From contig NZ_JAAKZV010000006.1 in the NCBI RefSeq assembly GCF_011044975.1, forward strand, positions 1 through 64,000: a stretch of DNA of 64,000 bases. The letters are read 5' to 3'. A program made the position numbers and the translations under genes. Positions 12,958-63,603 of this stretch are shown here, in pieces; within the stretch, counting starts at the first letter, position 1; every line of letters starts with the position of its first letter. The DNA comes from Streptomyces coryli (lineage in GTDB: Bacteria > Actinomycetota > Actinomycetes > Streptomycetales > Streptomycetaceae). The notes beneath the pieces are model-generated. The model was not told the origin of the DNA. It ran no database searches and saw nothing but the letters and a program-made list of their open reading frames with translations.

Positions 12958-12974
12958 TCTGACGCAGTGTCAGA
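12958..12974. promoter_or_regulatory. Palindromic operator TCTGAC-N5-GTCAGA, copy 1
   Basis: A perfect 6-bp inverted repeat with a 5-bp spacer (GCAGT). It lies 42 bp upstream of the nitronate monooxygenase start and 99 bp from the serine hydrolase start. The same arms and spacing occur at 22056-22072 and 63587-63603. The length fits a TetR-type dimer site (inference). Confidence 0.7.
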
Positions 12975-13016
12975 AAACCTCTTCCTTCGTCCGGCCCGCT
13001 GCGGCATCCTGCGCCC

Positions 13017-14120
13017 ATGCAGACGGAACTGAGCAGGAAGCTGGGCATCGAGCACGCCGTCTTCGGCTTCACGCCGTTCCCGGCGGTGGCCGCGGCGATC
13101 ACCCGGGCGGGCGGCATGGGCGTGCTGGGCGCGGTCCGCTACGGCGCCGGCGAGGAGCTGGCGCGGGACCTGGACTGGATGGAGGAGCACACCGACGGCA
13201 AGCCCTACGGCGTCGACGTCGTCATGCCGGCCAAGAAGGTCGAGAACGTGTCGATCGCCGACGTCGAGGCCATGATCCCGGAGGGCCACCGGAAATACGT
13301 GGCGGAGACCCTCGCCAAGTACGACGTCCCCGCCATGGAGGGCGAGTCCGGCTGGCGGATCACCGGCTGGATGGAGGCGGTCGCCCGCTCGCAGGTCGAC
13401 GTCGCCCTCGAATACCCCGTCAAGCTGATCGCCAGCGCCCTCGGCTCGCCACCGCCCGACGTGATCGAGCGGGCGCACGACCGTGGCATGCTCGTCGCCG
13501 CCCTCGCCGGCTCCGCCCGGCACGCCGAGCGTCACCAGGAGGCGGGCCTCGACATCGTCGTCGCCCAGGGCTATGAGGCCGGCGGCCACACCGGCGAGAT
13601 CGCGTCCATGGTCCTCACCCCAGAGGTCGTACGGGCCGTCTCCCCGCTGCCCGTCCTGGCCGCCGGCGGCATCGGCAGCGGCGAGCAGATCGCCGCGGGC
13701 CTGGCCCTCGGCGCCCAGGGCGTATGGCTCGGCTCGATCTGGCTCACCACCACCGAGGCCGAGATGCACTCCCGCGCGCTGACCGAGAAGCTCCTCGCCG
13801 CCGGCTCCGGCGACACCGTCCGCTCCCGCGCGCTGACCGGGAAGCCCGCCCGCCAGCTGCGCACCGAGTGGACCGACGCCTGGGACAGCCCGGACGGGCC
13901 CGGCACGCTGCCGATGCCGCTGCAGGGCCTGCTGGTCGCGGACGCGGTGTCCCGCATCCAGAAGTACGAGGTGCAGCCGCTGCTCGGCACCCCGGTCGGG
14001 CAGATCGTCGGCTCCATGAACACAGAACGCAGCGTGCAGCAGGTCTTCGACGACCTCACCCGCGGCTTCGAGCGCGCGGTGGACCGTATCAACGAGATCG
14101 CCGGGAGGAACGACGCATGA
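13017..14120 (+). CDS. Nitronate monooxygenase / 2-nitropropane dioxygenase family flavoenzyme
   Basis: A 367-residue TIM-barrel flavoprotein. Diagnostic blocks are the GGMGVLGAVRYG segment near residue 27, AQGYEAGGHTGEIASMVLTPEV (split here as AQGYEAGGHTG and the following strand) near 183-205, and LAAGGIGSGEQIAAGLALGAQG near 218, the FMN phosphate-binding region. Family members oxidise nitronates or act in CoA-linked lipid pathways. It overlaps the acyl-CoA synthetase gene by ATGA (14117), and the copy-1 palindrome lies upstream, which links it to acyl-CoA metabolism. No clear ribosome site precedes the ATG. Confidence 0.9.
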   Translation: MQTELSRKLGIEHAVFGFTPFPAVAAAITRAGGMGVLGAVRYGAGEELARDLDWMEEHTDGKPYGVDVVMPAKKVENVSIADVEAMIPEGHRKYVAETLAKYDVPAMEGESGWRITGWMEAVARSQVDVALEYPVKLIASALGSPPPDVIERAHDRGMLVAALAGSARHAERHQEAGLDIVVAQGYEAGGHTGEIASMVLTPEVVRAVSPLPVLAAGGIGSGEQIAAGLALGAQGVWLGSIWLTTTEAEMHSRALTEKLLAAGSGDTVRSRALTGKPARQLRTEWTDAWDSPDGPGTLPMPLQGLLVADAVSRIQKYEVQPLLGTPVGQIVGSMNTERSVQQVFDDLTRGFERAVDRINEIAGRNDA

Positions 14121-15670
14121 CAGCGCAGGCCCCCAACGGCTTCTGGGCGCAGGCCGCGGCCGACCCCGACCGGGTGGTGCTGATCGCCCCCGACGGCGAG
14201 GAGTGGACCGCCGCGCGGCTGCATGGCGAGTGCAACCGGCTGGTGCACGGTCTGCGCGCGGCGGGCCTGACCGCCGGCGATGCCTTCGCCGTCGTGCTGC
14301 CGAACGGCCCGGAACTCTTCACCGCCTACCTGGCCGCCTTCCAGGCGGGCTTCTATCTGGTGCCGGTCAACCACCACTTCGTCGGCCCGGAGATCGCCTG
14401 GATCGTCTCCGACTCCGGCGCCAAGGTCCTCATCGGGCACGACCGCTTCGCCGCCGAGGTGACGGCGGCCGCGGACGAGGCGGGACTCGCGGCCGAGGGC
14501 CGGTACGCGGTCGGCGAGGTGCCGGGCTTCCGGCCGTACGGCGATCTCCTCGCCGGGCAGCCGGACACCCCGCCCGAGGACCGCACCATGGGCTGGGTCA
14601 TGAACTACACCTCCGGCACCACGGGCCGGCCGCGCGGCATCCGGCGCCCGCTGAGCGGTAAGCCGCCGGAGGAGAACTACCTCGGCGGCTTCCTCGGCAT
14701 CTTCGGTGTCCGGCCCTTCGACGACAACGTGCACCTGGTCTGCTCGCCGCTCTACCACACGGCCGTGCTGCAGTTCGCGGGCGCGTCCCTGCACATCGGG
14801 CACCGGGTGGTGCTGATGGACAAGTGGACCCCCGAAGAGATGCTGCGGCTGATCGACACGTACCGGTGCACCCACACGCACATGGTCCCGACCCAGTTCC
14901 ACCGGCTGCTGGCGCTGCCGGAGGACGTACGGGCGCGCTACGACGTGTCCTCGATGCGGCACGCCATCCACGGCGCCGCGCCCTGCCCGGATCATGTGAA
15001 GCGGGCGATGATCGACTGGTGGGGGACCTGCGTCGAGGAGTACTACGCGGCCAGTGAGGGCGGCGGCACGTACGCCACCGCCGAGGACTGGCTGAAGCGG
15101 CCCGGGACGGTCGGCAAGGCCTGGCCGATCAGCGAGATCGCGATCTTCGACGACGACGGGAAGCGGCTGCCTGCCGGGGAGCTCGGCACCGTCTACATGA
15201 AGATGTCGACCGGCGGCTTCGCTTACCACAAGGACGAGGGGAAGACGCGGAAGAACCGGATCGGGGAGTTCTTCACCGTCGGGGACCTCGGCTATCTGGA
15301 CGAGGACGGCTATCTCTTCCTCCGCGACCGCAAGATCGACATGATCATCTCGGGCGGGGTCAACATCTACCCGGCCGAGATCGAGTCCGCGCTGCTCACC
15401 CACCCCGCGGTCGCGGACGCCGCGGCCTTCGGCATCCCGCACGACGACTGGGGCGAGGAGGTCAAGGCCGTCGTCGAGGCGGCCGAGGGCCAGCAGCCCG
15501 GGCCGGAGCTGGCGGCGGCGATCCTGTCCCACTGCGAGCAGCAGCTCGCCGGCTACAAGCGGCCGAAGTCGGTGGACTTCGTCGACCACATGCCGCGCGA
15601 CCCCAACGGCAAGCTCTACAAGCGCCGGCTGCGAGACCCTTATTGGGTGGGGCGGGAGCGCAAGGTCTGA
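14117..15670 (+). CDS. Acyl-CoA synthetase (FadD type)
   Basis: A 517-residue ANL enzyme that would activate a carboxylic acid with ATP and CoA. Visible motifs are the P-loop NYTSGTTGRPRG (about 161-172), a YYAASEGG motif in the A5 position near 311, GDLGYLDEDGYLFLRDR near 390, and the C-terminal catalytic lysine context PNGKLYKRRLRDPY. The start overlaps the nitronate monooxygenase stop. No N-terminal membrane segment is seen. Substrate unknown; the palindromic operator shared with sterol-type genes hints at a ring- or side-chain acid (inference). Confidence 0.9.
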   Translation: MTAQAPNGFWAQAAADPDRVVLIAPDGEEWTAARLHGECNRLVHGLRAAGLTAGDAFAVVLPNGPELFTAYLAAFQAGFYLVPVNHHFVGPEIAWIVSDSGAKVLIGHDRFAAEVTAAADEAGLAAEGRYAVGEVPGFRPYGDLLAGQPDTPPEDRTMGWVMNYTSGTTGRPRGIRRPLSGKPPEENYLGGFLGIFGVRPFDDNVHLVCSPLYHTAVLQFAGASLHIGHRVVLMDKWTPEEMLRLIDTYRCTHTHMVPTQFHRLLALPEDVRARYDVSSMRHAIHGAAPCPDHVKRAMIDWWGTCVEEYYAASEGGGTYATAEDWLKRPGTVGKAWPISEIAIFDDDGKRLPAGELGTVYMKMSTGGFAYHKDEGKTRKNRIGEFFTVGDLGYLDEDGYLFLRDRKIDMIISGGVNIYPAEIESALLTHPAVADAAAFGIPHDDWGEEVKAVVEAAEGQQPGPELAAAILSHCEQQLAGYKRPKSVDFVDHMPRDPNGKLYKRRLRDPYWVGRERKV

Positions 15671-15682
15671 CACGATCGGCGG

Positions 15683-16522
15683 ATGCCGATCTTCACCTCG
15701 TACGACGGGACTCAGCTCGCCTACCACGAGGAGGGCGAAGGACCGCCGCTCGTCTGCCTGCCCGGCGGGGCGATGCGGGCGTCGGAGTACCTCGGCGACC
15801 TGGGCGGGCTGACCGCCCACCGGACGCTGCTCCGGCTCGACCTGCGCGGTACGGGGGAGTCGGCGGTGCCGGCCGACGCGGGGACGTACCGCGTCGACCG
15901 GCAGGTCGCCGACGTCGAGGCGCTCCGGGCCCACCTCGGGCTCGACGCGGTCGACCTGCTCGCCCACTCGGCGGGGGCGGTGCTGGCCACGCGGTACGCC
16001 TTCGCGCACCCGGAGCGGATCCGGCGGCTGGTGCTCGTCACGCCCGGGATGTGGAACCTCGGGCTCGGCGACGATCTTGGTATGCGCCGCGAGGCGCTGG
16101 AGCTGCGTACCGACGAGCCCTGGTACCCGGAGGCGAAGGCGGCCCTGGACGCGCTGGCGGCGGGGGAGGCGCCGGGGCCTGAAATCATGGACGCGGTCCG
16201 GCCGCTCACCTACGGCCGGTGGGACGCGGCCGCGCAGGCGCATGCCGCCGGGCGGACGCGGCAGTTCAACTTCGAGGCCGCCGCGGCCTTCGCGGGCGCC
16301 GACGACCCGGACGCCTCCCGCGCGGCGGCGGCCCGCCTCGCCGCCCCCGTCCTGGTCCTCGCCGGTGAGCTCGACGGCTATCCGCGCCCCCGCACCGCCC
16401 GCGAGGCGGCCGCGCTCTTCCCGGCCGGCGAGGCCGCCGCGCTGCCCGGCGCCGCGCACTATCCGTGGCTCGATGCCCCCACCCGCTTCACCGCTGTGGT
16501 CGAGGGCTTCCTGGCCGGGTAG
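15683..16522 (+). CDS. Alpha/beta hydrolase
   Basis: A 279-residue alpha/beta hydrolase. The nucleophile elbow is AHSAG (Ser about 99), the acid is probably Asp in GELDGYP, and the histidine lies in GAAHYPW near the C-terminus. The oxyanion region is LPGGAM rather than HGG. It starts 12 nt after the acyl-CoA synthetase stop and is probably in the same transcript. It may be an esterase or thioesterase serving the upstream enzymes. Confidence 0.85.
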   Translation: MPIFTSYDGTQLAYHEEGEGPPLVCLPGGAMRASEYLGDLGGLTAHRTLLRLDLRGTGESAVPADAGTYRVDRQVADVEALRAHLGLDAVDLLAHSAGAVLATRYAFAHPERIRRLVLVTPGMWNLGLGDDLGMRREALELRTDEPWYPEAKAALDALAAGEAPGPEIMDAVRPLTYGRWDAAAQAHAAGRTRQFNFEAAAAFAGADDPDASRAAAARLAAPVLVLAGELDGYPRPRTAREAAALFPAGEAAALPGAAHYPWLDAPTRFTAVVEGFLAG

Positions 16523-16533
16523 CGTCGGCACGT

Positions 16534-17226
16534 ATGAGCGAGCTGATCACGGTCCGGGGGAGCGGCGCCACCATCGCGGCGCGCCGCTGGGGCCGCGCCG
16601 AGGCGCCGCCCCTGGTCCTGCTGCACGGGCTCGGCGCCAGCGGCGCCGACTGGGACCGCATCGCGCCGCACCTCGCGGCCCACTGGCAGGTCTTCGCCGT
16701 CGATCTGCGCGGGCACGGCTACAGCGACTGGCCGGGGGAGTACGCCTTCCCGCAGTTCGGCGAGGACGTCGCCGGCTTCATCGGCGGCCTCGGCCTCGGC
16801 CCCGTACACCTCGTCGGACACTCGCTCGGCGGCATCGCCGCCCAGTTCGTCGCCGTCCGCCGGCCCGACCTGGTCCGCCGCCTGGTCCTGGAGGAGGCGC
16901 CCGCCTTCGTCCCGGCCGTGCCGCCGCAGGAGGTGCCGCCGCGGCCCGAGGACCCGGGCTTCGACTGGGAGGCGAAGGTCCAGATCGTGCCGCAGCGCAA
17001 TGAGCCGGACCCGCGCTGGTACGAGCAGATCGCCGACATCACCGCGCCCACGCTGCTGATCTGGGGCGGCGAGGACAGCTTCCTGCCGGAGGCCGACCTC
17101 AAGGACGCCGCCGCCCGCATCCCCGACGCCCGGCTGATCACCATCGGGGGCGGGCATCTGGTGCACGCCACCCGCCCGGACGAGTTCGTCGCGGCCGTAC
17201 GCGAGTTCCTGCTGCTCGCGTCTTGA
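16534..17226 (+). CDS. Alpha/beta hydrolase (lipase/esterase-like)
   Basis: A 230-residue hydrolase with the classical HGLGASG oxyanion segment (about 30-36), nucleophile elbow GHSLGG (about 94-99), acid in WGGEDSF and histidine in GGGHLVHATRP. It is shorter than typical lipases, with a small cap. It lies 11 nt after the other hydrolase gene and is divergent in sequence from it, so it is not a recent tandem duplicate. Substrate unknown. Confidence 0.87.
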   Translation: MSELITVRGSGATIAARRWGRAEAPPLVLLHGLGASGADWDRIAPHLAAHWQVFAVDLRGHGYSDWPGEYAFPQFGEDVAGFIGGLGLGPVHLVGHSLGGIAAQFVAVRRPDLVRRLVLEEAPAFVPAVPPQEVPPRPEDPGFDWEAKVQIVPQRNEPDPRWYEQIADITAPTLLIWGGEDSFLPEADLKDAAARIPDARLITIGGGHLVHATRPDEFVAAVREFLLLAS

Positions 17227-17258
17227 TAACCGCGCCGTACCACCGCAGGCTGACGGCC

Positions 17259-18752: not shown

Positions 18753-18780
18753 GTCATTCCGCTTGACGGATACTGGCAGC

Positions 18781-19602
18781 GTGATACGCGTCATGACCTG
18801 GAATGTGTGGTGGCGCTTCGGTGCCTGGCAGGAGCGGGCGAAAGCCATCCTCGACACCCTGCGGCAGGAGCGGCCCGACGTCCTCGGGCTGCAGGAGGTG
18901 TGGGGCCGCGACGGGAACAACCTCGCCGGCTGGCTGGCCGACGAACTCGGCATGCACTGGGCGTGGTCCCCCTCTCCGCAACCCGGCCGCTGGCAGCGCC
19001 GCATCGACGATCCCGGCATCGACGTGGGCAATGCCGTGCTCAGCCGCTGGCCGATCACCTCGCACGAGGCGCGACGGCTGCCGGCGGGGGAGGAGCCGGA
19101 CGACGGGCAGACCGCGCTGTTCACGGCGATCGAGGCGCCGGGTGGGGTGCGGCTCCCGTTCTTCACCACGCACCTGCTGTCCACCGGATACGCCTCCGCC
19201 ACGCGCTGCGCGCAGGTCCGCGCGCTGGCGGAGTTCGTGGCGGAGCGGCGCGGCGAGGGCCCGTATCCGCCGGTCGTGACGGGCGATTTCAACGCCGAGC
19301 CGGACTACGATGAGATGCGCCTGATATGCGGCGTACAAACGGCGCCCGCCGTCCCCCGCCAGATCCTCCTGGACGCCTGGCGCTACGCCGACCCCGGACA
19401 ACCCTGGCAGACCTGGGACATGACCAACCCACACGCGGCAGCCCACCTGGAGTGGGACGCCCGCATCGACTACGTCCTGCTCGGCCCGCCGGGGCCCGGC
19501 GGCGCCGGCCACGTCCGCGCCATCCGCCGCTCCGGCGACACCCCGGTGGACGGGGTCTGGCCGTCCGACCACTGCGCGGTGGTCGCCGACCTGGCGTCGT
19601 AG
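18781..19602 (+). CDS. Endonuclease/exonuclease/phosphatase family hydrolase
   Basis: A 273-residue EEP-fold phosphodiesterase. Conserved blocks are MTWNVWW (Asn metal ligand), QEVWG (catalytic Glu), TGDFNAEPD near residue 170, RIDYVLLG, and the terminal SDHCAVVADL with the Asp-His pair. No signal peptide is visible, so it is likely cytosolic. Members cleave nucleic acids, phospholipids or phosphoinositides; the substrate is not clear. GTG 18781 is chosen because it puts the first strand at the N-terminus; TTG 18763 is also open. Confidence 0.85.
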   Translation: MIRVMTWNVWWRFGAWQERAKAILDTLRQERPDVLGLQEVWGRDGNNLAGWLADELGMHWAWSPSPQPGRWQRRIDDPGIDVGNAVLSRWPITSHEARRLPAGEEPDDGQTALFTAIEAPGGVRLPFFTTHLLSTGYASATRCAQVRALAEFVAERRGEGPYPPVVTGDFNAEPDYDEMRLICGVQTAPAVPRQILLDAWRYADPGQPWQTWDMTNPHAAAHLEWDARIDYVLLGPPGPGGAGHVRAIRRSGDTPVDGVWPSDHCAVVADLAS

Positions 19603-20348: not shown

Positions 20349-21971
20349 TCAGCCCTTTGCCGCGACCTCCTTTGCCCAGCGGTAGTCGGCCTTGCCGCTC
20401 GGGGAGCGTTGGATGTGGTCGGTGAAGACGACGGTGCGGGGGATTTTGTAGCCGGCCAGGTGGGTGCGGCAGTGGGACTGCACCGCCTCTGCCGAGAGCG
20501 GGTCGGCGCCGTCGCGCGGTTGGATGACGGCCGCCACCCGGTTGCCCCAGCGCTCGTCCGGGACGCCCGCCACCAGCACGTCGTAGACGTCGGGGTGCGC
20601 CTTCAGCGCCTCCTCGACCTCCTCCGGATAGACCTTCTCGCCACCGGTGTTGATGCACTGCGAGCCGCGCCCGAGCACCGTGACGACGCCGCCCTCGTCC
20701 ACCGTCGCCATGTCGCCGAGCAGCACCCAGCGCTGCCCGTCGGCGTCCTGGAAGAAGGTCTCGGCTGACTTCTTCGGGTCGTTGTAGTAGCCGAGCGGCA
20801 CATGGCCGCGCTGCGCGACGCGGCCCACCTCACCCGGCGGTACGGGCTCGTGCGTGGCCGGATCGACCACCATCGTGCGCTCGTTGACCTCGACCCGGAA
20901 ACCACGCGCTCCGCCGCTGTCCGACGTCGCGGTGCCGTTGAAGCCCGACTCGGAGGAGCCGAAGTTGTTCAGCAGCATGCAGTTCGGCACCAGCTTGCGG
21001 AAACGAGCGGCGAGAGTCTCCGAGAGGATGGCGCCGGAGCTGGAGACGCTGAAGAGCGACGAGCAGTCCGTGTCCTTCAGCGGACCCTCCAGGGCGTCGA
21101 CCATGGGGCGGAGCATCGCGTCGCCCACCAGCGAGATGCTGGTGACCTTCTCCTTGGCGACGGTGCGCAGCACCTCCTCCGGCACATACTTGCGGTGCGT
21201 GATCACCTTCTGGCCGAAGTTGAAGCCGATGAACGAGGTCAGCGTCGCCGTGCCGTGCATCAGCGGCGGCGTCGGGAAGAAGACCAGGCCCTCGCCGCCG
21301 GCCGCCACCCGCTCGGCCAGTTCCTCCGGTCGCTTCACCGGGTCCCCGGTCGGCGCCCCGCCGCCGAGCCCCGAGAAGAACAGGTCCTCCTGGCGCCACA
21401 TCACGCCCTTGGGCATGCCGGTGGTGCCGCCGGTGTAGATGATGAACTGGTCGTCCGCCGACCGCTTCCCGAACCCGCGGCCGGAAGACCCGGACGCCTC
21501 CGCCTCCGCGAACGGCACCGGCGTGACGGACGGCTCGGGCGCGTCCGCGGCCGGTTCTCCGGTACGTATCAGATGGCGCAGCTTCGGCGCCCGCGGCAGC
21601 GCGGCCGCCACCCGGGGGGTGAACTCCGCGTCGAAGATCAGCGCCGTGAGGTCGGCGTCGCGGAAGAGATAGACCAGCTCCTCTTCCACGTAGCGGTAGT
21701 TGATGTTCACCGGCACCGCGCGGATCTTTACGCAGGCCAGGGCGGTCTGCAGATACTCCACGCAGTTGTAGAGGTACAGGCCCACGTGCTCGCCCGGTTT
21801 GACGCCCGCGTCCTCGAGGTGGTGCGCCAGGCGGTTCGCCGCCGCGTCCAGCTCGGCATACGTCAGCCGGCGCTCGGCGCCGCTGCCCGGATGGTCGATG
21901 TGCACCAGCGCTTCGCGGTCCGGGACCGTGTCCACGACGGACTCGAAGAGGTCGGCAAGGTTGTACTCCAC
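20349..21971 (-). CDS. Acyl-CoA synthetase, FadD19-like (steroid side-chain CoA ligase family)
   Basis: A 540-residue ANL ligase. Motifs: IIYTGGTTGMPKGVMWR (P-loop), NNFGSSESGFNG (A5 position), LGRGSQCINTGGEKVYPEEVEEAL and the C-terminal SPSGKADYRWAKE. These blocks match my memory of Mycobacterium FadD19, which activates sterol C26 or C24 side-chain acids. GTG 21971 is preceded by AGGAGGAG and gives the usual short N-terminus; frames to 22028 are too long. It is divergent from the enoyl-CoA hydratase gene, with a shared palindrome between. Exact substrate is inference. Confidence 0.88.
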   Translation of the reverse strand: MEYNLADLFESVVDTVPDREALVHIDHPGSGAERRLTYAELDAAANRLAHHLEDAGVKPGEHVGLYLYNCVEYLQTALACVKIRAVPVNINYRYVEEELVYLFRDADLTALIFDAEFTPRVAAALPRAPKLRHLIRTGEPAADAPEPSVTPVPFAEAEASGSSGRGFGKRSADDQFIIYTGGTTGMPKGVMWRQEDLFFSGLGGGAPTGDPVKRPEELAERVAAGGEGLVFFPTPPLMHGTATLTSFIGFNFGQKVITHRKYVPEEVLRTVAKEKVTSISLVGDAMLRPMVDALEGPLKDTDCSSLFSVSSSGAILSETLAARFRKLVPNCMLLNNFGSSESGFNGTATSDSGGARGFRVEVNERTMVVDPATHEPVPPGEVGRVAQRGHVPLGYYNDPKKSAETFFQDADGQRWVLLGDMATVDEGGVVTVLGRGSQCINTGGEKVYPEEVEEALKAHPDVYDVLVAGVPDERWGNRVAAVIQPRDGADPLSAEAVQSHCRTHLAGYKIPRTVVFTDHIQRSPSGKADYRWAKEVAAKG

Positions 21972-22055: not shown

Positions 22056-22072
22056 TCTGACTGACCGTCAGA
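22056..22072. promoter_or_regulatory. Palindromic operator TCTGAC-N5-GTCAGA, copy 2
   Basis: Perfect 6-bp arms with spacer TGACC. It is centred in the divergent region, 84 bp from the FadD19-like start and 69 bp from the enoyl-CoA hydratase start, so one site could control both operons. It is flanked by an A-run (22050-22055) on one side and AAAG on the other, as in the other copies. Confidence 0.75.
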
Positions 22073-22141: not shown

Positions 22142-22948
22142 ATGGGCGGAAGCGAGCACCTCACGGTGGAACGGGTGGGCGCCACCCTTGTGCTGACCCT
22201 GAATCGGCCGGAGGCGAAGAACGCGCTCTCGCTGCCGATGCTGGTCGGCCTCTACGACGGCTGGCAGGAGGCGGACGCGGACGACGACATCAGGTCGGTG
22301 GTCTTCACCGGCGCCGGCGGCGACTTCTGCGCCGGCATGGACCTCAAGGCCCTGGCCGGCGGCGGCAAGCTGAACGGCGACGACCCGTACCGGCACCGCA
22401 TGAAGGAAGACCCGGACCTGCACTGGAAGGCGATGCTGCGGCATCACCGGCCGCGCAAGCCGGTCATCGCGGCGGTGGAGGGGTATTGCGTGGCCGGCGG
22501 CACCGAGATGCTGCAGGGCACGGACATCCGGGTGGCGGGGGAGAGCGCTACCTTCGGGCTCTTCGAGGTGGCGCGGGGGCTGTTCCCGATCGGCGGGTCG
22601 ACGGTGCGGCTGCCGCGGCAGATCGCCCGGACGCACGCCCTCGAAATGCTGCTCACCGGGCGTCCGTACACGGCGGAAGAGGCCCGCGACATCGGGCTGA
22701 TCGGGCACGTCGTCCCCGACGGCACCGCGGTCGAGAAGGCCCTGGAGATCGCCGAGAAGATCAATAACTGCGGCCCGCTGGCCGTCGAGGCGATCAAGGC
22801 CAGCGTCTACGACACGGCGTCGCTGCCCGAGGAGGACGGCCTGAAGCTCGAACTCGAGCGCGGCTGGCCCATCTTCGCCACCGCCGACGCCAAAGAAGGC
22901 TCCAAGGCCTTCGCCGAGAAGCGCACCCCGAAGTTCCGGAGGGCCTGA
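22142..22948 (+). CDS. Enoyl-CoA hydratase (crotonase family, EchA19-like by context)
   Basis: A 268-residue crotonase. The CoA-binding oxyanion blocks are FCAGMDLKAL (about 62-71) and VAGGTEML (about 117-124); a Glu in FEVARGLFPIGG lies where the second catalytic acid is expected. It would hydrate an alpha,beta-unsaturated acyl-CoA made from the acid activated by the divergent FadD19-like ligase. AGGAGGG at 22126-22132 supports ATG 22142. The stop overlaps the next start (TGATG), so four genes to 26131 form a tightly coupled operon. The EchA19 comparison rests on gene order. Confidence 0.9.
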   Translation: MGGSEHLTVERVGATLVLTLNRPEAKNALSLPMLVGLYDGWQEADADDDIRSVVFTGAGGDFCAGMDLKALAGGGKLNGDDPYRHRMKEDPDLHWKAMLRHHRPRKPVIAAVEGYCVAGGTEMLQGTDIRVAGESATFGLFEVARGLFPIGGSTVRLPRQIARTHALEMLLTGRPYTAEEARDIGLIGHVVPDGTAVEKALEIAEKINNCGPLAVEAIKASVYDTASLPEEDGLKLELERGWPIFATADAKEGSKAFAEKRTPKFRRA

Positions 22949-23898
22949 TGACGGACGTGCTCAGCGCTCCACTCGTCGTGGAGTTCCCGTTCACCCGCTC
23001 GCTCGGCCCGGTGCAGAGCGCCTTCCTCACCGGGCTGCGCGAGCAGACCGTGCTCGGCGTGCGCACGGCCGCCGGGAAGGTGCTGGTGCCCCCGGTCGAG
23101 TACGACCCCGAGACCTCCGCCGAGCTGAGCGAACTCGCCGAGGTCGGCGCGACAGGCACCGTCACCACCTGGGCCTGGAACCACGAGCCGCGCCGTGGCC
23201 AGCCGCTCGACACCCCCTTCGCGTGGGTGCTGGTCCGGCTCGACGGCGCGGACACGGCGCTGCTGCACGCGCTGGACGTGCCGGGCCCCGACGCGGTGCA
23301 CACCGGCATGCGGGTCCGTATCCGCTGGGCCGCCGAACGCGCGGGCGCCATCACCGACATCGCCTGCTTCGAGCCGGCCGCCGACGACGGCGCGCCGCTC
23401 GCCGCCGCCACCCCGCACTCCGGCGCCTTCGAGGACCCGCTCACCGGCGTCACGCTCCCCGCCCGCCTCGACTACACCTACACGCCGGGCCGCGCGACCA
23501 CCTCGTATCTGAACGGGCTGAAGGAGCGCCGCCTCATCGGCGAGCGCTGCCCGGTCTGCGAGAAGGTCTACATCCCGCCCCGCGGAGCCTGTCCCACCGA
23601 CGGCGTCGCCACCGCCGAGAAGGTCGAGGTGGGCCCGTCCGGCACCGTCACCACGTACGCCATCGTCAACATCAAGGCCAAGAACCTCGACGTCGAGGTG
23701 CCGTACGTCTACGCCCACGTGGCCATGGACGGCGCCGGGCTCCCGCTGCACGGGCGGATCGGCGGCATCCCGTACGACCAGGTGCGGATGGGGATGCGGG
23801 TCGAGCCGGTGTGGAAGGACGGCAACGACTACCCCGATCACTACCGCCCCACGGGCGAACCGGACGCGGACTACGACATGTACAAGGAGCAGCTCTGA
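22948..23898 (+). CDS. Tandem OB-fold DUF35 protein (thiolase partner)
   Basis: A 316-residue protein with two DUF35 units. The C-terminal unit has a zinc-ribbon start with Cys201, Cys204 and Cys215 (CPVC...GACPTD), then an OB fold. The N-terminal unit repeats the layout but its zinc-ribbon cysteines are gone. DUF35 proteins bind thiolase-fold enzymes and open their acyl-CoA tunnel, as in ChsH2-Ltp2. Here it sits directly before two thiolase-fold genes, with TGATG overlaps on both sides, so it probably bridges them (inference). Order and size recall Mycobacterium tuberculosis Rv3521. Confidence 0.85.
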   Translation: MTDVLSAPLVVEFPFTRSLGPVQSAFLTGLREQTVLGVRTAAGKVLVPPVEYDPETSAELSELAEVGATGTVTTWAWNHEPRRGQPLDTPFAWVLVRLDGADTALLHALDVPGPDAVHTGMRVRIRWAAERAGAITDIACFEPAADDGAPLAAATPHSGAFEDPLTGVTLPARLDYTYTPGRATTSYLNGLKERRLIGERCPVCEKVYIPPRGACPTDGVATAEKVEVGPSGTVTTYAIVNIKAKNLDVEVPYVYAHVAMDGAGLPLHGRIGGIPYDQVRMGMRVEPVWKDGNDYPDHYRPTGEPDADYDMYKEQL

Positions 23899-24968
23899 TG
23901 CCGTCGTACGCACGCGACGTGGCCGTCGTCGCCTTCGCCCAGTCCGACCACAAGCGGCACACGGACGAGCAGTCCGAGGTCGAGATGCTGATGCCGGTGC
24001 TGCACCAGGTGCTGGCCGCCACCGGCCTGAAGACCGGTGACATCGACTTCACCTGCTCCGGGTCCAGCGACTATCTCGCCGGCCGTGCCTTCTCCTTCAC
24101 CATGGCGCTCGACGGGGTCGGCGCCTGGCCGCCGATCTCCGAGTCGCACGTCGAGATGGACGGGGCGTGGGCGCTGTACGAGGCGTGGGTGAAGATCCAG
24201 ACCGGCGAGGCGGATACGGCGCTGGTCTACTCGTACGGGAAGTCCTCGCCGGGTTCGGTACGCGATGTGCTGACGCGGCAGCTGGACCCGTACTACGTCG
24301 CCCCGCTGTGGCCGGACGCACCCGCTCTTGCCGCGCTGCAGGCACAGGCGTTGATCGACGCAGGCGAGGCGGACGAGAAGGCCCTGGCCGGCGTCGCCTC
24401 CCGTAGCCGGGCCGCGGCGGCCGGCAACCCGCATGCCCAGCTGCGAGGCGAGCGCCCGCAGGGCGACTATGCCGTCCAGCCGCTGCGTACGGGGGACCTG
24501 CCGCCGGTCACCGACGGCGCGGCCGCCGTGATCCTCGCCGCCGACGACACCGCGCGCCGGCTGTGCGAACGCCCCGCCTGGATCCGCGGCATCGACCACC
24601 GCATCGAGGCCCACAGCCTCGGCGTCCGCGACCTCACCGACTCGCCGTCCACCCGGCAGGCCGCGGAGCGGGCCGGGGCCTTCGAGCGGCCGGTGGACAC
24701 GGCGGAGCTGCATGCGCCGTTCAGCTCGCAGGAGTTGGTGCTGCGCAAGGCGCTCGGCCTCGACGACAGCGTCTCCGTGAACCCGTCCGGCGGCGCCCTC
24801 GCCGCCAATCCGATCATGGCCGCCGGGCTCATCCGGATCGGTGAGGTCGCGGCCCGTATCCACCGCGGCGAGTCGGCCCGCGCCCTCGCGCACGCCACCT
24901 CGGGCCCGTGCCTGCAGCAGAACCTGGTCGCCGTCCTCGAAGGCCAAGAAGGAGAGGCAAGCCGATGA
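23898..24968 (+). CDS. Thiolase-fold lipid-transfer protein, Ltp4-like, catalytic Cys replaced by Glu
   Basis: A 356-residue SCP2-thiolase-like protein. The C-terminal half retains NPSGGALAANPIMAAG, typical of the family. Aligning the active-site helix with the Ltp2-like protein at 61928 puts Glu86 (HVEMDGAWAL) where the nucleophilic cysteine of CASG should be. It is therefore unlikely to be a true thiolase and may act as an aldolase-type or structural subunit with DUF35 and its neighbour. Size and gene order match the mycobacterial ltp4-ltp3 pair. TGATG and ATGA overlaps couple it on both sides. Confidence 0.85.
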   Translation: MPSYARDVAVVAFAQSDHKRHTDEQSEVEMLMPVLHQVLAATGLKTGDIDFTCSGSSDYLAGRAFSFTMALDGVGAWPPISESHVEMDGAWALYEAWVKIQTGEADTALVYSYGKSSPGSVRDVLTRQLDPYYVAPLWPDAPALAALQAQALIDAGEADEKALAGVASRSRAAAAGNPHAQLRGERPQGDYAVQPLRTGDLPPVTDGAAAVILAADDTARRLCERPAWIRGIDHRIEAHSLGVRDLTDSPSTRQAAERAGAFERPVDTAELHAPFSSQELVLRKALGLDDSVSVNPSGGALAANPIMAAGLIRIGEVAARIHRGESARALAHATSGPCLQQNLVAVLEGQEGEASR

Positions 24969-26131
24969 GCAAGCAGCCAGTCGCGGTGACCGGGATCGGC
25001 CAGACCAAGCATGTGGCCGCCCGCCGCGACGTCTCCATAGCGGGCCTGGTCCGCGAGGCCGCCCAGCGCGCCCTCGAGGACGCGGGCCTCGACTGGCCCG
25101 ACATCGACGCCGTCGTCATCGGGAAGGCCCCCGACTTCTTCGAGGGCGTGATGATGCCGGAGCTGTATCTGGCCGACGCCCTCGGCGCGGTCGGCAAGCC
25201 GATGCTGCGCGTACACACGGCGGGCTCGGTCGGCGGCTCGACGGCGCTGGTCGCGTCGAACCTGGTCGCGGCGGGCGTGCACGAGACCGTCCTCACCGTC
25301 GCGTTCGAGAAGCAGTCGGAGTCCAACGCGATGTGGGGCCTGTCGCTGCCGGTCCCGTTCACCCAGCCGCTCGTCGCGGGCGCGGGCGGCTTCTTCGCCC
25401 CGCACATCCGCTCGTACATGCGGCGGACGGGGGCGCCCGACACCATCGGCTCCCTGGTCGCGTACAAGGACCGCAGGAACGCCCTGAAGAACCCCTACGC
25501 GCACCTCCATGAGCACGACATCACCCTGGAGAAGGTGCAGGCCTCGCCGATGCTCTGGGACCCGGTCCGCTACTCGGAGACCTGCCCGTCGTCGGACGGC
25601 GCCTGCGCGATGGTGCTGTCCTCGCGGGAGCGCGCCGCCCGCGCGCCGCACCGCCCTGCCTGGGTGCACGGCGGGGCGATGCGCAGCGAGCCGACCATGT
25701 TCGCGGGCAAGGACACGGTCTCGCCGCAGGCGGGCAAGGACTGCGCGGCGGACGTCTACCGGCAGGCCGGCATCACCGACCCGCGCCGGGAGATCGACGC
25801 GGTCGAGATGTACGTCCCGTTCAGCTGGTACGAGCCGATGTGGCTGGAAAATCTGGGCTTCGCACAGGAGGGCGAGGGGTGGAAGCTGACGGAGTCCGGC
25901 GTGACGGAACTCGACGGCGACCTGCCCGTCAATCCGTCCGGCGGGGTGCTCTCCACCAACCCCATCGGCGCCTCCGGCATGATCCGCTTCGCGGAGGCGG
26001 CGCTGCAGGTCCGCGGGCAGGCCGGGGAGCATCAGGTGGACGGCGCCCGGCGCGCGGTGGGACACGCGTACGGGGGCGGCTCGCAGTTCTTCGCCATGTG
26101 GCTGGTCGGTGACGAGCCGCCGACGTCCTGA
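24965..26131 (+). CDS. Thiolase-fold lipid-transfer protein, Ltp3-like, catalytic Cys replaced by Gly
   Basis: A 388-residue thiolase superfamily member. The position of the active-site cysteine is Gly87 in TAGSVGGSTAL. The C-terminal substrate-loop motifs NPSGGVLSTNPIGASG and GHAYGGGSQF are kept. Together with the preceding Ltp4-like protein and DUF35 partner it probably forms a hetero-oligomer acting on a CoA-thioester side chain, as proposed for Ltp3/Ltp4 in sterol degraders (family knowledge; the activity here is inference). It is the last gene of the operon. Confidence 0.86.
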   Translation: MSKQPVAVTGIGQTKHVAARRDVSIAGLVREAAQRALEDAGLDWPDIDAVVIGKAPDFFEGVMMPELYLADALGAVGKPMLRVHTAGSVGGSTALVASNLVAAGVHETVLTVAFEKQSESNAMWGLSLPVPFTQPLVAGAGGFFAPHIRSYMRRTGAPDTIGSLVAYKDRRNALKNPYAHLHEHDITLEKVQASPMLWDPVRYSETCPSSDGACAMVLSSRERAARAPHRPAWVHGGAMRSEPTMFAGKDTVSPQAGKDCAADVYRQAGITDPRREIDAVEMYVPFSWYEPMWLENLGFAQEGEGWKLTESGVTELDGDLPVNPSGGVLSTNPIGASGMIRFAEAALQVRGQAGEHQVDGARRAVGHAYGGGSQFFAMWLVGDEPPTS

Positions 26132-56115: not shown

Positions 56116-56220
56116 GGAGGCGCCCCCCGCGTGTTCGTCCCGAAGTCCCGTGCCGCGCCAGGTCATTGACGCGCGCAATCACCTGAGCCGACGCTACATC
56201 GTCACATCTGACGAGGGGTC

Positions 56221-56284
56221 GGAACAAGACGGATCATGGGGCCGGAACAAGACGGATCATGCTGCGGGAACAAGACGGATCATG
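56221..56284. repeat. Three 23-bp direct repeats between divergently used genes
   Basis: The 18-bp core GGAACAAGACGGATCATG occurs identically at 56221-56238, 56244-56261 and 56267-56284, with 5-nt variable spacers, so the period is exactly 23 bp, close to two helical turns. The last copy overlaps the 3' end of the upstream membrane protein gene (stop at 56280). The array lies upstream of the methyltransferase gene and fits an iteron-like regulator site. Confidence 0.92.
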
Positions 56285-56711
56285 CCTCGGACATCACCGT
56301 CCGCGCCGGCCTCCCACGCGCCTGCGCCCGCTGGGACCGCCGCTGCCTGCGCCGCTCCCGGCGCAGCCGGCGCGCCGCGCTGCTCGGGCTGGAGATGACG
56401 CCGTTCCGCTGGTTCCACACCTGCCGGGTCACCCAGACGTCCAGCACCCCCCATGTGGCGGCGACGGTGCTCACCACGGAGGTCAGCAGCGCGGGGAAGG
56501 CGAACCACGATCCGGCGAGCGTGCACAGCACGGCGACCATGCCCAGCACCATCGTCACGGACACGATGATCACGGCACGCACCGCCGCGTTACGCACCGG
56601 ATCGGGCAGCCGCGGGGTGCCCACGGGCTCGTCCACCCACAACTGGTCCCGCTCCTCGTACTCCTCATACTCCTCGTACGGTATTGCTTCAGCCATCTCT
56701 CTACCGGACAT
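56280..56711 (-). CDS. Two-helix membrane protein with acidic N-terminus
   Basis: A 143-residue protein. An acidic, Tyr/Glu-rich N-terminus (EEYEEYEERD) is followed by two hydrophobic segments (about 47-68 and 74-96) and a very basic Arg/Gln tail. ATG 56711 has GGAG 6 nt upstream; a longer frame to 56882 crosses the conservon promoter region and is unlikely. Its stop lies in the third 23-bp repeat. Function unknown. Confidence 0.65.
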   Translation of the reverse strand: MSGREMAEAIPYEEYEEYEERDQLWVDEPVGTPRLPDPVRNAAVRAVIIVSVTMVLGMVAVLCTLAGSWFAFPALLTSVVSTVAATWGVLDVWVTRQVWNQRNGVISSPSSAARRLRRERRRQRRSQRAQARGRPARTVMSEA

Positions 56712-59301: not shown

Positions 59302-59735
59302 ACGCGTACGAATCCCTGGCACGCAGTCAGCAGCCGGGGTCGGAGCGGCTCAACTGGCTGCTCGACGATCTCGTTGAGCGGGTGGCCAGCGTCCGGATGG
59401 CCCTGGTGGTGTCCGGCGACGGCCTCGCCATGGGCGTCTCGCAGGGCGTGGAGCGGGAGGACGCCGAGCATCTCGCGGCGCTGGCCTCCGGCTTCCACGG
59501 CCTCGCGAAGGGCGTCGGGGCCCGCTTCGACGCCGGCGCGGTCCGGCAGACGGTGGTGGAGCTCGACGAGCTGTTCTTCTTCGTCACCACGGCCGGCGAC
59601 GGCAGCTGCCTCGCGGTGCTCGCCGAGGCGGACGCGGACATCGGCCAGATCGCGTACGAAATGACCCTCCTGGTCAAGCGCGTCGGCGACCACCTCGCCG
59701 CGGGACGGCGGGACGGCGGGACCGCCGGCGGGTAA
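59298..59735 (+). CDS. cvnB: Roadblock/LC7 protein CvnB
   Basis: A 145-residue roadblock/LC7-domain protein: LNWLLDDLVERVASVRMALVVSGDG start, LAALASGFHGLAKG middle and TTAGDGSCLAVLAEADADIG. In conservons, CvnB binds the kinase-like CvnA and the GTPase CvnD. The GTG start overlaps the cvnA stop (GTGA, 59298-59301). Confidence 0.93.
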   Translation: MNAYESLARSQQPGSERLNWLLDDLVERVASVRMALVVSGDGLAMGVSQGVEREDAEHLAALASGFHGLAKGVGARFDAGAVRQTVVELDELFFFVTTAGDGSCLAVLAEADADIGQIAYEMTLLVKRVGDHLAAGRRDGGTAGG

Positions 59736-59738
59736 CCG

Positions 59739-60167
59739 ATGCCCCAAGCCGACAGCTGGTACGACGACGAGGCCGGCCCGGTCGTCCGCCCGTACGCGAT
59801 GACCAGGGGCCGTTTCAGCAGCGCTCCCGACCCGTCCCTGGACGAGCGCGTGGAGACGGTGCCGGACGCCTCGCCGCCGGAAGGGCTCGCTCCGGAACAT
59901 CACCGGATCCGCGAGCTGTGCGCCGCCGGGCCGCGCTCCGCGCGCGGCATGGCGGCGGCGCTCGACCTGCCCGCGGTGGTGGTCCGGGTGCTCGTCACGG
60001 ACCTGCTGACGGCGGGCATGCTGCGTACCACCGACGCCGAGCCGGACGCCGCGACCCGGGCCGCCGAAGCCGCCGCCTCCGAGGAGGCGGCGGCGGTCGC
60101 CATGGGCGCGGCGGAGGTCGACGAGTCGCTGCTCCGCCAGGTGATCGAGGGCCTCAAGGCCCTGTGA
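59739..60167 (+). CDS. cvnC: DUF742 protein CvnC
   Basis: A 142-residue DUF742 protein with the core HHRIRELCAAGPRSARGMAAALDLPAVVVRVLVTDLLTAGML (quoted in parts, about 54-95), a winged-helix-like fold. CvnC normally lies between CvnB and the GTPase CvnD. Here no cvnD follows: the next gene is glpK on the opposite strand after 21 nt. The C-terminus ends in the family's usual LRQVIEGLKAL helix, so CvnC itself is complete. Confidence 0.9.
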   Translation: MPQADSWYDDEAGPVVRPYAMTRGRFSSAPDPSLDERVETVPDASPPEGLAPEHHRIRELCAAGPRSARGMAAALDLPAVVVRVLVTDLLTAGMLRTTDAEPDAATRAAEAAASEEAAAVAMGAAEVDESLLRQVIEGLKAL

Positions 60168-60188
60168 GCCGGACCTGCCGGAGCGGGG

Positions 60189-61700
60189 TTACGAGCCCTC
60201 GCCCTCCTCCCAGGCGAAGGTGCGCTCCACCGCCTTCTTCCAGTTGGCGTACTCGCGGTCGCGGGTCTGCGCCTCCATCCGCGGCGTCCACTCCTGGTCC
60301 TTCTTCCAGTGCGCCTTGAGCTCGTCGGTGCTCTGCCACACGCCGGTGGCCAGGCCCGCGGCGTAGGCGGCGCCGAGACAGGTGGTCTCGGAGACCACCG
60401 GGCGGATCACCGGCACGCCGAGGACGTCGGACTGGTGCTGCATCAGCAGGTTGTTGACGGTCATGCCGCCGTCCACCCGCAGATCGGTGATCTGCACGCC
60501 GGAGTCCTGGTACATGGCGTCGACGACCTCGCGGGTCTGCCAGCTCGTCGCCTCCAGCACCGCGCGCGCGAGGTGCGCCTTGGTCACGTACCGGGTCAGG
60601 CCGGTGATCACGCCGCGGGCGTCGGAGCGCCAGTACGGCGCGAACAGGCCGGAGAACGCCGGGACGATGTACGCGCCGCCGTTGTCCTCCACGCTCGCCG
60701 CGAGCGGCTCGATGTCCTCGGCGTTCTGGATGATGCCGAGCTGGTCGCGGAACCACTGCACCAGCGCGCCGGTGATCGCGATGGAGCCCTCGAGACAGTA
60801 GACCGGCGCCTCGCTGCCGATCTGGTAGCCGACCGTGGTGATCAGGCCGGACTTCGAGGGGACGGGCCGGGTGCCGGTGTTCAGCAGCAGGAAGCTGCCG
60901 GTGCCGTATGTGTTCTTCGCCTCGCCGGGCTCGTAACAGGTCTGCCCGAAGATCGCCGCCTGCTGGTCGCCCAGCGCGGAGGCCACCGGCACGCCTGCCA
61001 GCTGGCCCGTGCAGGTGCCGTACGCCTCGGCCGACGGGCGGATCTCCGGCAGCATCGCCTCCGGGATGCCGAGCGCGCTGAGGATGGCCGGATCCCACTG
61101 GTGCGACTCGATGTTCATCAGCAGCGTGCGGGAGGCGTTGGTGATGTCGGTGACGTGCCGGCCGCCGTCGACGCCGCCGGTGAGGTTCCAGATCAGCCAG
61201 GAGTCCATGGTGCCGAAGGCGATCTCGCCGTTCTGCGCGCGGGCGCGCAGGCCCGGCACGTTCTCCAGCAGCCAGGCGGCCTTGGGTCCGGAGAAGTACG
61301 TGGCCAGCGGCAGGCCCGTCTTGTCGCGGAAGCGGTCCTGGCCGTGTTCGGCGCCGAGCTCGTTGCAGAGCGCCGCGGTACGGGTGTCCTGCCAGACGAT
61401 GGCGTTGTGCACCGGCTTGCCGGTGGCCTTGTCCCACAGGACCGTGGTTTCGCGCTGGTTGGTGATGCCGACGGCGCTGAGCTCGTCGGCGCGCAGGCCC
61501 GCCTTGGCGAGTGCGCCGGCCACCACGGCCTGGGTCTTGGACCAGATCTCGGTGGCGTCGTGCTCCACCCAGCCCGGCTTCGGGAAGATCTGGCGGTGCT
61601 CGCGCTGGTCGACGGCGACGATGCCGCCGGCCTCGTTGAAGATGATGCAGCGGCTCGAAGTGGTTCCCTGGTCGATTGCGGCTACGTACTTGTCGTTCAT
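60189..61700 (-). CDS. glpK: Glycerol kinase
   Basis: A 503-residue FGGY-family kinase that phosphorylates glycerol to glycerol-3-phosphate with ATP. Clear markers: [63 protein letters not shown], and the C-terminal [15 protein letters not shown]. Length is typical. No glpF, glpD or gylR-type regulator is adjacent, so this is probably a stand-alone copy. ATG 61700 has GGGGG upstream. It is convergent with cvnC. Confidence 0.96.
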
Positions 61701-61871
61701 GCTTGCCCCCAGGTAGCTGGATGCGCGGCGACGTTCGACGACGTGCGGACCGGGCCGTCGCCAGTGGCGGCAGATCGCCGGAGGGGAACCGACGGCTCCA
61801 CGCTACGGGGGCCGTCTGGCGGCGCTGCCAGCTGACATCGCGCAGTTTTCACCGGGGGTGTGAGGGCGTCA

Positions 61872-61912
61872 AGACGGTGGACACGAAGGGTTGTTGTGTA
61901 TGTCCACCGTCT
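61872..61912. terminator. 12-bp inverted repeat, likely terminator after the Ltp2-like gene
   Basis: Perfect arms AGACGGTGGACA (61872-61883) and TGTCCACCGTCT (61901-61912) with a 17-nt AT-richer loop. On the minus strand it lies 15 nt past the Ltp2-like gene stop. No T-run follows, so it could instead be an operator for glpK, whose start is 171 nt away. Confidence 0.5.
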
Positions 61913-61927
61913 CGCGGCAGGGGCGGC

Positions 61928-63109
61928 TCAGCGGACGGCGACCACCGACGAGCCGTGGCCGAATAGCCCCTGGTTGGCGGTGATGCCGGTACGCGCCCCC
62001 GGCACCTGGCGGCCGCCGGCCTGCCCGCGCAGCTGCCAGGTCAGCTCGCAGACCTGCGCGATGGCCTGAGCGGGCACCGCCTCGCCGAAGGACGCCAGAC
62101 CGCCACTGGGGTTGACCGGAATCCGGCCGCCGAGCGCGGTGTCGCCGGCCCGCAGCAGCTTCGCCCCCTCACCCTCGGCGGCGAGGCCCAGCGCCTCGTA
62201 CCAGTCGAGCTCCAGGGCGGTGGACAGGTCGTACACCTCGGCGGTGTCTACGTCGTCGGGGCCGAGCCCGGCCTGCTCGTACGCCGCCTGCGCCAGCTGG
62301 GCGCGGAAGGCGGTCGCGCCCGCGCCGTCCGCGTCGGTGGCGATGTCGGGGAAGTCGAGGTCGGAGCGCGGGTAGGCGGGGGTGCGGGTGGAGACGGCCC
62401 GGATCCGCACCGGCTTGTCGGCGCCGTGCCGGCGGGCGAAGTCGAGGCTGGTCAGGACCAGGGCGGCGGCGCCGTCGGAGGTGGCGCAGATGTCGAGCAG
62501 CCGCAGCGGGTCGGCGACGACGGCGGAGGCGGCCACCTCGGAGGCGTCGACGGCCTTGGGATAGCGGGCGTTGGGGTTCTGCGCGCCGGCTGCGGCGTTC
62601 TTGACCTTCACCTGCGCGAAGTCGTCGACTGTGTCGCCGTACAGGGCCATCCGGCGGCGGGCGTAGAGGGCGAAGTAGGCGGGGTTGGTGGCGCCCAGGA
62701 GGCGGAAGCGCACCCAGTCGGGGTCGTCGGGGCGCTCGCCGGCGTTCGGGGCGAAGAAGCCCTTGGGGGCCGACTCGGCGCCGATCACGAGCGCGACCTC
62801 GCAGTCCCCGGCGAGGATCTGGTCGCGGGCGGCGGCGATGGCCTGGGAGCCGGAGGCGCAGGCGGCGTAGACGGTGGTGACGCGGGTGGCGTTGAGGCCC
62901 ATGGCGCGGGCGAAGGTGGAACCCGCGACGTAGCCGGGATAGCCGCAGCGGACCGACCCCGCGCCGACGACCGACTGGACGGCGTCCCAGGCGAGTCCGG
63001 CGTCGGCCAGGGCGGAGCGGGCGGCGGCGACGCCGTAACGGACGAAGCTCTGCCCCCACTTGCCCCAGGGGTGCATGGCGGCGCCGAGCACCGCGATCTC
63101 GCCGGTCAC
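61928..63109 (-). CDS. Thiolase-fold lipid-transfer protein, Ltp2-like
   Basis: A 393-residue thiolase superfamily member. Unlike the two Ltp proteins at 24 kb it keeps a cysteine at the nucleophile position (Cys84 in YAACASGSQA). NPSGGLASFGEAVPAQ and GHGSSVV are kept at the C-terminus. Ltp2-type enzymes are retro-aldolases that release propionyl-CoA from the sterol side chain with a DUF35 partner. The partner is the next gene: GTG 63109 overlaps its stop (GTGA). Role in sterol or related acyl-CoA cleavage is inference. Confidence 0.87.
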   Translation of the reverse strand: MTGEIAVLGAAMHPWGKWGQSFVRYGVAAARSALADAGLAWDAVQSVVGAGSVRCGYPGYVAGSTFARAMGLNATRVTTVYAACASGSQAIAAARDQILAGDCEVALVIGAESAPKGFFAPNAGERPDDPDWVRFRLLGATNPAYFALYARRRMALYGDTVDDFAQVKVKNAAAGAQNPNARYPKAVDASEVAASAVVADPLRLLDICATSDGAAALVLTSLDFARRHGADKPVRIRAVSTRTPAYPRSDLDFPDIATDADGAGATAFRAQLAQAAYEQAGLGPDDVDTAEVYDLSTALELDWYEALGLAAEGEGAKLLRAGDTALGGRIPVNPSGGLASFGEAVPAQAIAQVCELTWQLRGQAGGRQVPGARTGITANQGLFGHGSSVVAVR

Positions 63110-63567
63110 CGGGTTCCCTCCGTCGCGCGCTCGGGCTGCCAGTGCCAGGTGGTCAGGACGCGATCGGCGTCCTCGTGCAGCACCCCCGGCACCAGCTCCA
63201 CCGGCATGCCCACCTCGAGCTCTTCGGTGCGCACCCCGGGCACGGCCTGCCCCATGACCACGATCCGCTCCTCCTTCAGCTCCACGGCGAGCAGCGCGTA
63301 CGGCTCCCACTCCCGGTCCTGATCACGCGGATACGGGGGCGGCGGCGGGTAGCGGCAGTCGGTGTACGACCAGATGCGGCCCCGCGGCGACAGCGCCACC
63401 TCGATGAACTCGGTGCTGGTACAGCCGGGATCGCGGCAGAAGTCGTCCTCGCGCGGGAAGAACAGCGCCCCGCAGGCGGCGCACCGCGTCCCGAGCAGCC
63501 GGAAGCCGCGCGGATCGCCGTCCTCGGTGAACAGACCGGCGACGGCCGGCGTGCGGGTGGGCGCCAT
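63106..63567 (-). CDS. Zn-ribbon OB-fold (DUF35) protein, Ltp2 partner
   Basis: A 153-residue DUF35 protein. The zinc ribbon is complete: Cys29, Cys32, Cys44, Cys49 (CAACG and FCRDPGC). The OB fold follows. In mycobacteria the equivalent domain is fused to the MaoC-type hydratase ChsH2; here it is free-standing. ATG 63567 follows GGAGGG, and the copy-3 palindrome lies 20 bp upstream. Coupled by GTGA to the Ltp2-like gene, it is the first gene of that operon. Confidence 0.9.
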   Translation of the reverse strand: MAPTRTPAVAGLFTEDGDPRGFRLLGTRCAACGALFFPREDDFCRDPGCTSTEFIEVALSPRGRIWSYTDCRYPPPPPYPRDQDREWEPYALLAVELKEERIVVMGQAVPGVRTEELEVGMPVELVPGVLHEDADRVLTTWHWQPERATEGTR

Positions 63568-63586
63568 GGCTTCCCTCCAGTAGTCA

Positions 63587-63603
63587 TCTGACGGCGTGTC
63601 AGA
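63587..63603. promoter_or_regulatory. Palindromic operator TCTGAC-N5-GTCAGA, copy 3
   Basis: Perfect 6-bp arms with spacer GGCGT, 19 bp upstream of the DUF35 start codon and 50 bp upstream of the divergent VanX-like gene. It would overlap the DUF35 promoter or 5' leader, fitting repression. Same arms and spacing as at 12958 and 22056. Confidence 0.75.

Follow-up and report, generated by a model that had tools for sequence, protein, structure and literature searches.

A palindrome of the form TCTGAC-N5-GTCAGA occurs in three perfect copies in a 64-kb window of Streptomyces coryli (positions 1 to 64,000 of contig NZ_JAAKZV010000006.1; "the window" denotes this whole stretch). We propose that it is the operator of a TetR_N plus TetR_C_38 repressor, an orthologue of SCO4421 encoded outside the window, and assign this reading a probability of about 0.78. 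The dispersed regulon that the palindrome marks in the lineage of the window is real. A palindrome conserved in the promoters of co-functional genes, as expected of a TetR-operator regulon, was found, and at the level of sequence the element behaves as a real operator.

Distribution of the palindrome

The three perfect copies lay exactly where the initial annotation had placed them (Table 1), and no perfect copy was present in any of 100 dinucleotide-preserving shuffles of the window. At 73% G+C, 0.0009 perfect matches are expected in 64 kb. The claim that three copies could not be due to chance was thus upheld, while the accompanying figure of one match per 17 Mb, which is 4^12 at equal base use, becomes approximately one per 70 Mb. 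With up to three mismatches, 11 matches were detected in the window, below the shuffled mean of 20, and hence only the perfect copies stand out. All three were intergenic, each in a divergent promoter whose two genes start no more than 300 bp from the palindrome. Acyl-CoA genes were present at every site, as annotated, but the statement that the palindrome occurred only before such genes did not stand, as sites 1 and 3 also face a beta-lactamase-family gene and an M15 peptidase gene, respectively.

Conservation of site 1 was examined in the promoters of nitronate monooxygenase (NMO) genes from the best 80 of 559 relatives (78 Streptomyces, 1 Wenjunlia and 1 "Actinobacteria bacterium"). A site at -59/-60 bp of the gene was detected in all 80, with a perfect match in 6, one mismatch in 62 and two in 12; the commonest form, TCTGAC-N5-ATCAGA, was present in 69. 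The CTGAC element was kept in 79 to 80 of these promoters and TCAG in all 80, the spacer was variable and the upstream DNA was near background. A perfect counterpart of site 2 was found between the same genes in genomes G002, G003 and G004 (L115, L100 and L108; the locus was examined in three of five genomes). Site 3 was perfect before the orthologous gene pair in G001, G002, G004 and G005 (L104, L119, L113 and L099) and had one mismatch in G003 (L129).

Five Streptomyces genomes contained 4 to 7 perfect sites each and none for the reversed control. Across 61 genomes of the genus there were 259 perfect sites (median, 4; at least one in 54 genomes) and 2 reversed-control matches. When one mismatch was allowed, 31, 31, 32 and 41 sites were detected in G003, G023, G117 and G062, versus 1, 2, 4 and 1 for the reversed control. 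Promoter placement was scored with gene contexts from a codon-composition script, which may misplace gene starts by some tens of bases, and sites less than 400 bp from a locus end were excluded. All 24 scored sites from the five Streptomyces genomes (24 of 25) and all 27 scored sites from clade B (27 of 53) lay between genes, at most 300 bp from a gene start. Overall, the 51 inspected perfect copies in these two groups were all in promoters, 30 of them with starts on both sides. These results bore out the proposal of one palindrome before a dispersed, mainly acyl-CoA gene set.

Genes near the sites of G003 encoded acyl-CoA dehydrogenases, SDRs, LLM oxidoreductases, amidohydrolases, thiolase/Ltp and DUF35 proteins, together with an FMO-like and a CoA-ligase-like protein. 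One site-linked acyl-CoA dehydrogenase was nearest to IpdE2, below the IpdE2 cut-off, and a site-linked FadD3-family ligase was over the cut-off for its family. In clade B, the sites mostly fronted acyl-CoA dehydrogenase, thiolase, SDR, LLM, DUF35 and ligase genes, and many of these genes shared 57 to 69% identity with members of the G003 set. Most of the predicted regulon was shown by this genome comparison. Wide occurrence before unrelated genes, which the annotation had named as an outcome that would speak against a regulon, was not observed in Streptomyces or clade B, although some sites there lack an acyl-CoA gene; it was largely observed in G090, a genome of clade D.

A candidate TetR regulator

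In agreement with the annotation, the regulator appears to be encoded elsewhere: a six-frame hidden Markov model search of the window did not detect the family (best match, E = 0.55). The candidate, P0001, is a TetR protein of approximately 211 amino acids (G003:C1:3839600-3840232) in which Pfam identifies TetR_N and TetR_C_38 (244 bits), and its gene is located inside the densest cluster of sites. Orthologues were profiled in 148 genomes of the class using a cut-off of E < 1e-30, with the next match at 2e-13. The 30 genomes with an orthologue included all 22 with at least two perfect sites, and none of the 118 genomes without one had more than one perfect site. The association persisted without clade D (G017, G040, G058, G074 and G090, 5 of the 22 co-occurring genomes), at 17 of 17, and at 8 of 8 when Streptomyces-type genomes (G001 to G005, G023 and G044, which are known Streptomyces, and others assigned on the strength of a TetR with 83% identity or more) were also removed. 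A P0001-type TetR was present in 61/61 genomes of the genus.

A TetR-type gene carrying the same site had been anticipated by the annotation. A related, two-mismatch site was found directly before the TetR gene in 5/6 clade B and 3/3 clade C loci, and in 2/5 clade D loci. Furthermore, the recognition stretch TSPATFYQYF was invariant in 21 orthologues except for the P49 column. These comparisons point strongly to a P0001-type TetR as the regulator of the palindrome.

The neighbours of P0001 encode a Pkinase plus PQQ protein, a 77-amino-acid protein without a Pfam match and a BTAD plus NB-ARC plus TPR protein, which we take to be AfsK, AfsS and AfsR. As these neighbour domains match and the published SCO4421 lies close to afsK, P0001 is probably, by synteny, the orthologue of SCO4421 of S. 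coelicolor. The available text of the report on that gene describes a TetR close to afsK (SCO4423) that is whiA-dependent, up in sporulation and spore-expressed and whose deletion had no observed phenotype; no operator, targets or function are given in that text (PMC3878966). Second copies of the P0001 family, all <60% identical to P0001, were also seen in plasmid records (H6 to H25); identity was 35 to 46% among the 20 matches listed, and 28 of 34 matching records were from Streptomyces.

Several observations weigh against this assignment. The orthologue cut-off was placed at a visible gap, P0001 was the only TetR profiled, and the Fisher probabilities for co-occurrence (6e-20, 2e-16 and 2e-9) ignore kinship. 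Eight of the 30 TetR-bearing genomes had 0 to 1 perfect site, and 7 of the 61 genus genomes had none, though still with 5 to 16 sites at up to one mismatch versus 0 to 5 for the control. None of 6 Streptomyces-type TetR loci had an own-promoter site at up to two mismatches; in 5/6 Streptomyces loci a three-mismatch site lay over the start codon. The clustering of sites, with 12 of 31 in 85 kb for G003 (binomial, 3e-16) and at least 11 of 31 in 62 kb for G023 (binomial, 1e-16), speaks for the assignment, but it was calculated for intervals picked after the sites were seen. At L111, L114, L184 and L192, the last two being clade B exceptions, the genes behind the sites have no evident acyl-CoA function, and in G003 a number of one-mismatch sites are inside genes, for example in a ribosomal-protein operon; the latter are probably chance matches. 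The TetR of clade D is only 42 to 45% identical to P0001, and only 7 of 23 inspected sites in G090 were promoter-like. Clade D was discounted on these two grounds, the sites having been checked in one genome. G090 has 56 perfect copies (for example, L160 to L179) and none for the reversed control; with 7/23 promoter-like, these copies were rejected as a giant regulon.

Known steroid regulators, alternatives and the proposed model

In clade B, the TetR gene adjoins an operon for CoA-transferase subunits that match PDB entries 6co6 and 6con (E values of 1e-97 and 2e-75), presumably IpdAB of HIP degradation. The divergent ipdAB promoter carries the palindrome, which is perfect in L145 and L146 and has one mismatch in L147 to L150. 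A KstR2-like TetR was not seen in 19 clade B loci, which cover parts of genomes only. Two clade C loci had a KstR2-like palindrome in the ipd promoter instead of TCTGAC-N5-GTCAGA; in one of them, L207, a weak two-mismatch copy of the latter was present before ipdA as well. Of the 5 Streptomyces ipd loci retrieved, 4 had a KstR2-like TetR beside the ipd genes. The one protein tested matched PDB KstR2 (4w97) at an E value of 7e-57, with the unnamed structure 2ibd as the only better match. TCTGAC-N5-GTCAGA was absent from the ipd promoters of all 5 loci; copies with one or two mismatches in L202 to L204 were inside genes. The rewired sterol control suggested by the annotation was only partly borne out: it fits clade B but was not supported as stated for the lineage of the window, and in Streptomyces ipd loci the present system exists side by side with a KstR2 orthologue. 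An IpdA homologue was found in 12 of 15 Streptomyces-type genomes, the 3 without it having 2, 0 and 0 perfect sites, and in the four clade C genomes, which have 0 to 1 perfect sites.

The present system is similar to that of KstR2, a TetR repressor whose operator is described in the available text as a palindrome located in divergent promoters that serve acyl-CoA and ring-degradation genes (PMC3068626); in clade B, the ipd promoter likewise carries the present motif. The two differ in operator, that of KstR2 being AnCAAGnnCTTGnT (PMC3068626), and KstR2 is not close to P0001. The annotation's view that the motif differs from known KstR sites was supported as regards the KstR2 motif. Of the 5 Streptomyces ipd promoters (between SDR and echA20-like genes, L201 to L205), 4 share a separate motif, CTAACAAA(C/T)GTTTGGTGG, and L201 has a variant. 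The shared motif is similar to that of KstR2 except that A/T replaces the inner G/C, and Streptomyces KstR2 may bind there. With up to two mismatches allowed, AAGCAAG-N2-CTTGCTT outnumbered its reversed control, by 1 to 2, in no more than 3 of 15 genomes.

A second comparison was made with Rv0767c/G155_05115, a TetR for which the text available reports a palindrome, "motif X," that precedes dozens of phytosterol-induced genes not belonging to the KstR or KstR2 regulons (PMC6593523). That palindrome is also found near the start of the regulator's own gene (PMC6593523), as a related site is for the present TetR in clades B and C. Four loci (L193 to L196) were taken as Rv0767c-like because the Rv0768-family neighbour was over its cut-off and on the basis of gene order. 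In all four, the Rv0768-family gene is preceded by the palindrome TGGACAC-N-TGTCCA, which recurs in the same region in a shorter form (GGACA-N2-TGTCC or GGACACGTGTCC); this palindrome is a candidate for "motif X."

That the palindrome is simply a site of KstR2, KstR or an Rv0767c-type TetR is scarcely credible, the least probable of the explanations considered. The gene classes are similar, the motif occurs at ipdAB in clade B and "motif X" is itself a palindrome before phytosterol-induced genes; set against this, KstR2 was rejected as the binder on both operator motif and protein family, being absent among the matches listed (60 of 61) for the TetR profile against PDB, a set that includes KstR2, and KstR matched that profile only at 0.007. 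The Rv0767c system was rejected likewise, as its loci have another palindrome and lack TCTGAC-N5-GTCAGA at up to two mismatches, and its TetR is distant, with one local match to P0001 of 37% over 56 amino acids. From these comparisons, the present system would work like KstR2, yet it is neither KstR2 nor the Rv0767c/motif X system. SAV151 of S. avermitilis has one listed site with the same hexamers, TCTGAC and GTCAGA, in the text available, but 10 rather than 5 bases separate them and the protein is described as acting on its neighbours sav152-154 (PMC10933834). A hexamer match in PMC2782261 was a primer pair only. No published record of TCTGAC-N5-GTCAGA as an operator was found in the open-licence literature searched, coverage of which was partial.

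It is unlikely, though worth taking seriously, that the palindrome is an acyl-CoA operator of another regulator and that the afsK-linked TetR is a mere passenger of the site cluster. The want of a good own-promoter site in Streptomyces fits such an arrangement, as do other TetR genes near single sites (for example, L107 and L133) and the 83 TetR_N matches in G003, of which one TetR was profiled. Against it stand the co-occurrence described above, the place in the densest cluster, the own-promoter sites of clades B and C and the invariant recognition stretch. We consider it very improbable that the palindrome is no operator but a hairpin of the terminator type or some other repeat. Of 23 copies inspected in G090, 16 were placed as such an element might be, 6 of them within genes and the rest not near a gene start, in some cases with convergent genes on either side; the promoter placement of all inspected copies in Streptomyces and clade B, and a core that is fixed while the spacer and upstream flank vary, argue for an operator.

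In the preferred reading, that of an operator bound by the SCO4421-type repressor, a TetR dimer would bind the palindrome, whose half-site centres are 11 bp apart, or approximately one helical turn. The repressor would occupy single or divergent promoters at approximately 30 sites and block transcription. Its targets would be mostly genes of CoA-thioester catabolism (FadD-type ligases, acyl-CoA dehydrogenases, EchA, SDRs and LLM/F420 oxidoreductases), with DUF35-Ltp pairs, amidohydrolases and NMO as further targets. A CoA thioester or other substrate intermediate would then bind the C-terminal domain, leading to release of the repressor. We infer binding, repression, inducer and substrate; the direction of repression and the nature of the ligand are suggested by analogy with KstR, KstR2 and other TetR proteins, and a ring-containing substrate by family behaviour only.

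A tentative extension, possible but with the odds against it, is that the TetR of the afs locus serves throughout Streptomyces as master repressor of a pathway that breaks down a polycyclic isoprenoid not among the common sterols and feeds the KstR2-associated ipd ring-cleavage cluster, and that in a different actinobacterial lineage this TetR took the ipd promoter from KstR2. The afsK-afsR-afsS locus is, as we understand it, the classic governor of growth and antibiotic production. If the operator assignment is correct, it would provide an operator, a list of approximately 30 target sites and a likely function for an orphan regulator present in every sampled genome of the genus, one whose published deletion gave no phenotype in the text available (PMC3878966). 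It would also present a testable instance of a promoter passing from one TetR to another, and it suggests that a catabolic pathway is widespread in a genus for which steroid degradation is mostly recorded as absent. In the available text of a survey, 55 of 57 Streptomyces genomes are given as having no steroid pathway (PMC4810484), so that a sterol substrate is not established.

Genes at the three sites in the window

A Pfam scan of 29 of the 48 called window proteins supported the gene identities given by the annotation at all three sites (Table 1). The NMO gene and the ligase gene that follows it overlap and are likely to form one operon.

Table 1. Palindrome copies and adjoining genes in the window
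Feature	Sequence	Position	Strand	Basis or remark
Beta-lactamase-family gene, other side of site 1		11092..12768	-	Pfam Beta-lactamase, 226 bits
Operator copy 1	TCTGACGCAGTGTCAGA	12958..12974	.	Perfect match; 43 bp before NMO start
Nitronate monooxygenase-family gene		13017..14120	+	Pfam NMO, 166 bits
FadD-type acyl-CoA ligase		14117..15670	+	AMP-binding, 207 bits
FadD-type ligase (FadD19-like in the initial annotation)		20349..21971	-	AMP-binding, 195 bits
Operator copy 2	TCTGACTGACCGTCAGA	22056..22072	.	Perfect match; between ligase and EchA operon
Enoyl-CoA hydratase family		22142..22948	+	ECH_1, 187 bits
ChsH2-like DUF35/OB-fold protein		22948..23898	+	OB_ChsH2_C + zf-ChsH2; PDB ChsH2 6ok1_B, E 7e-9
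Ltp-like (thiolase superfamily)		23898..24968	+	NCBIfam PRK07937 lipid-transfer protein, 572 bits (cut-off 419)
Thiolase-superfamily protein		24965..26131	+	Thiolase_C_1, 118 bits
Doubtful one-mismatch copy	TCTGACGAGGGGTCGGA	56207..56223	.	Mismatch scan of window
Ltp-like (thiolase superfamily)		61928..63109	-	NCBIfam PRK06059 lipid-transfer protein, 649 bits (cut-off 424)
DUF35/ChsH2-like protein		63106..63567	-	OB_ChsH2_C, 42 bits
Operator copy 3	TCTGACGGCGTGTCAGA	63587..63603	.	Perfect match; before DUF35-Ltp pair
M15 peptidase, other side of site 3		from 63654		

The window NMO was up to 84% identical to Streptomyces proteins, and orthologues of the site 2 ligase, 76 to 77% identical, adjoin the site in relatives. 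The NMO-ligase pair of site 1 was also seen at approximately 79% DNA identity on three S. clavuligerus plasmids (NZ_CP065243.1, NZ_CP065257.1 and NZ_CP065260.1). Short tandem repeats of approximately CGGAACAAGACGGATCATG (positions 56210 to 56300) immediately follow the palindrome copy with one mismatch.

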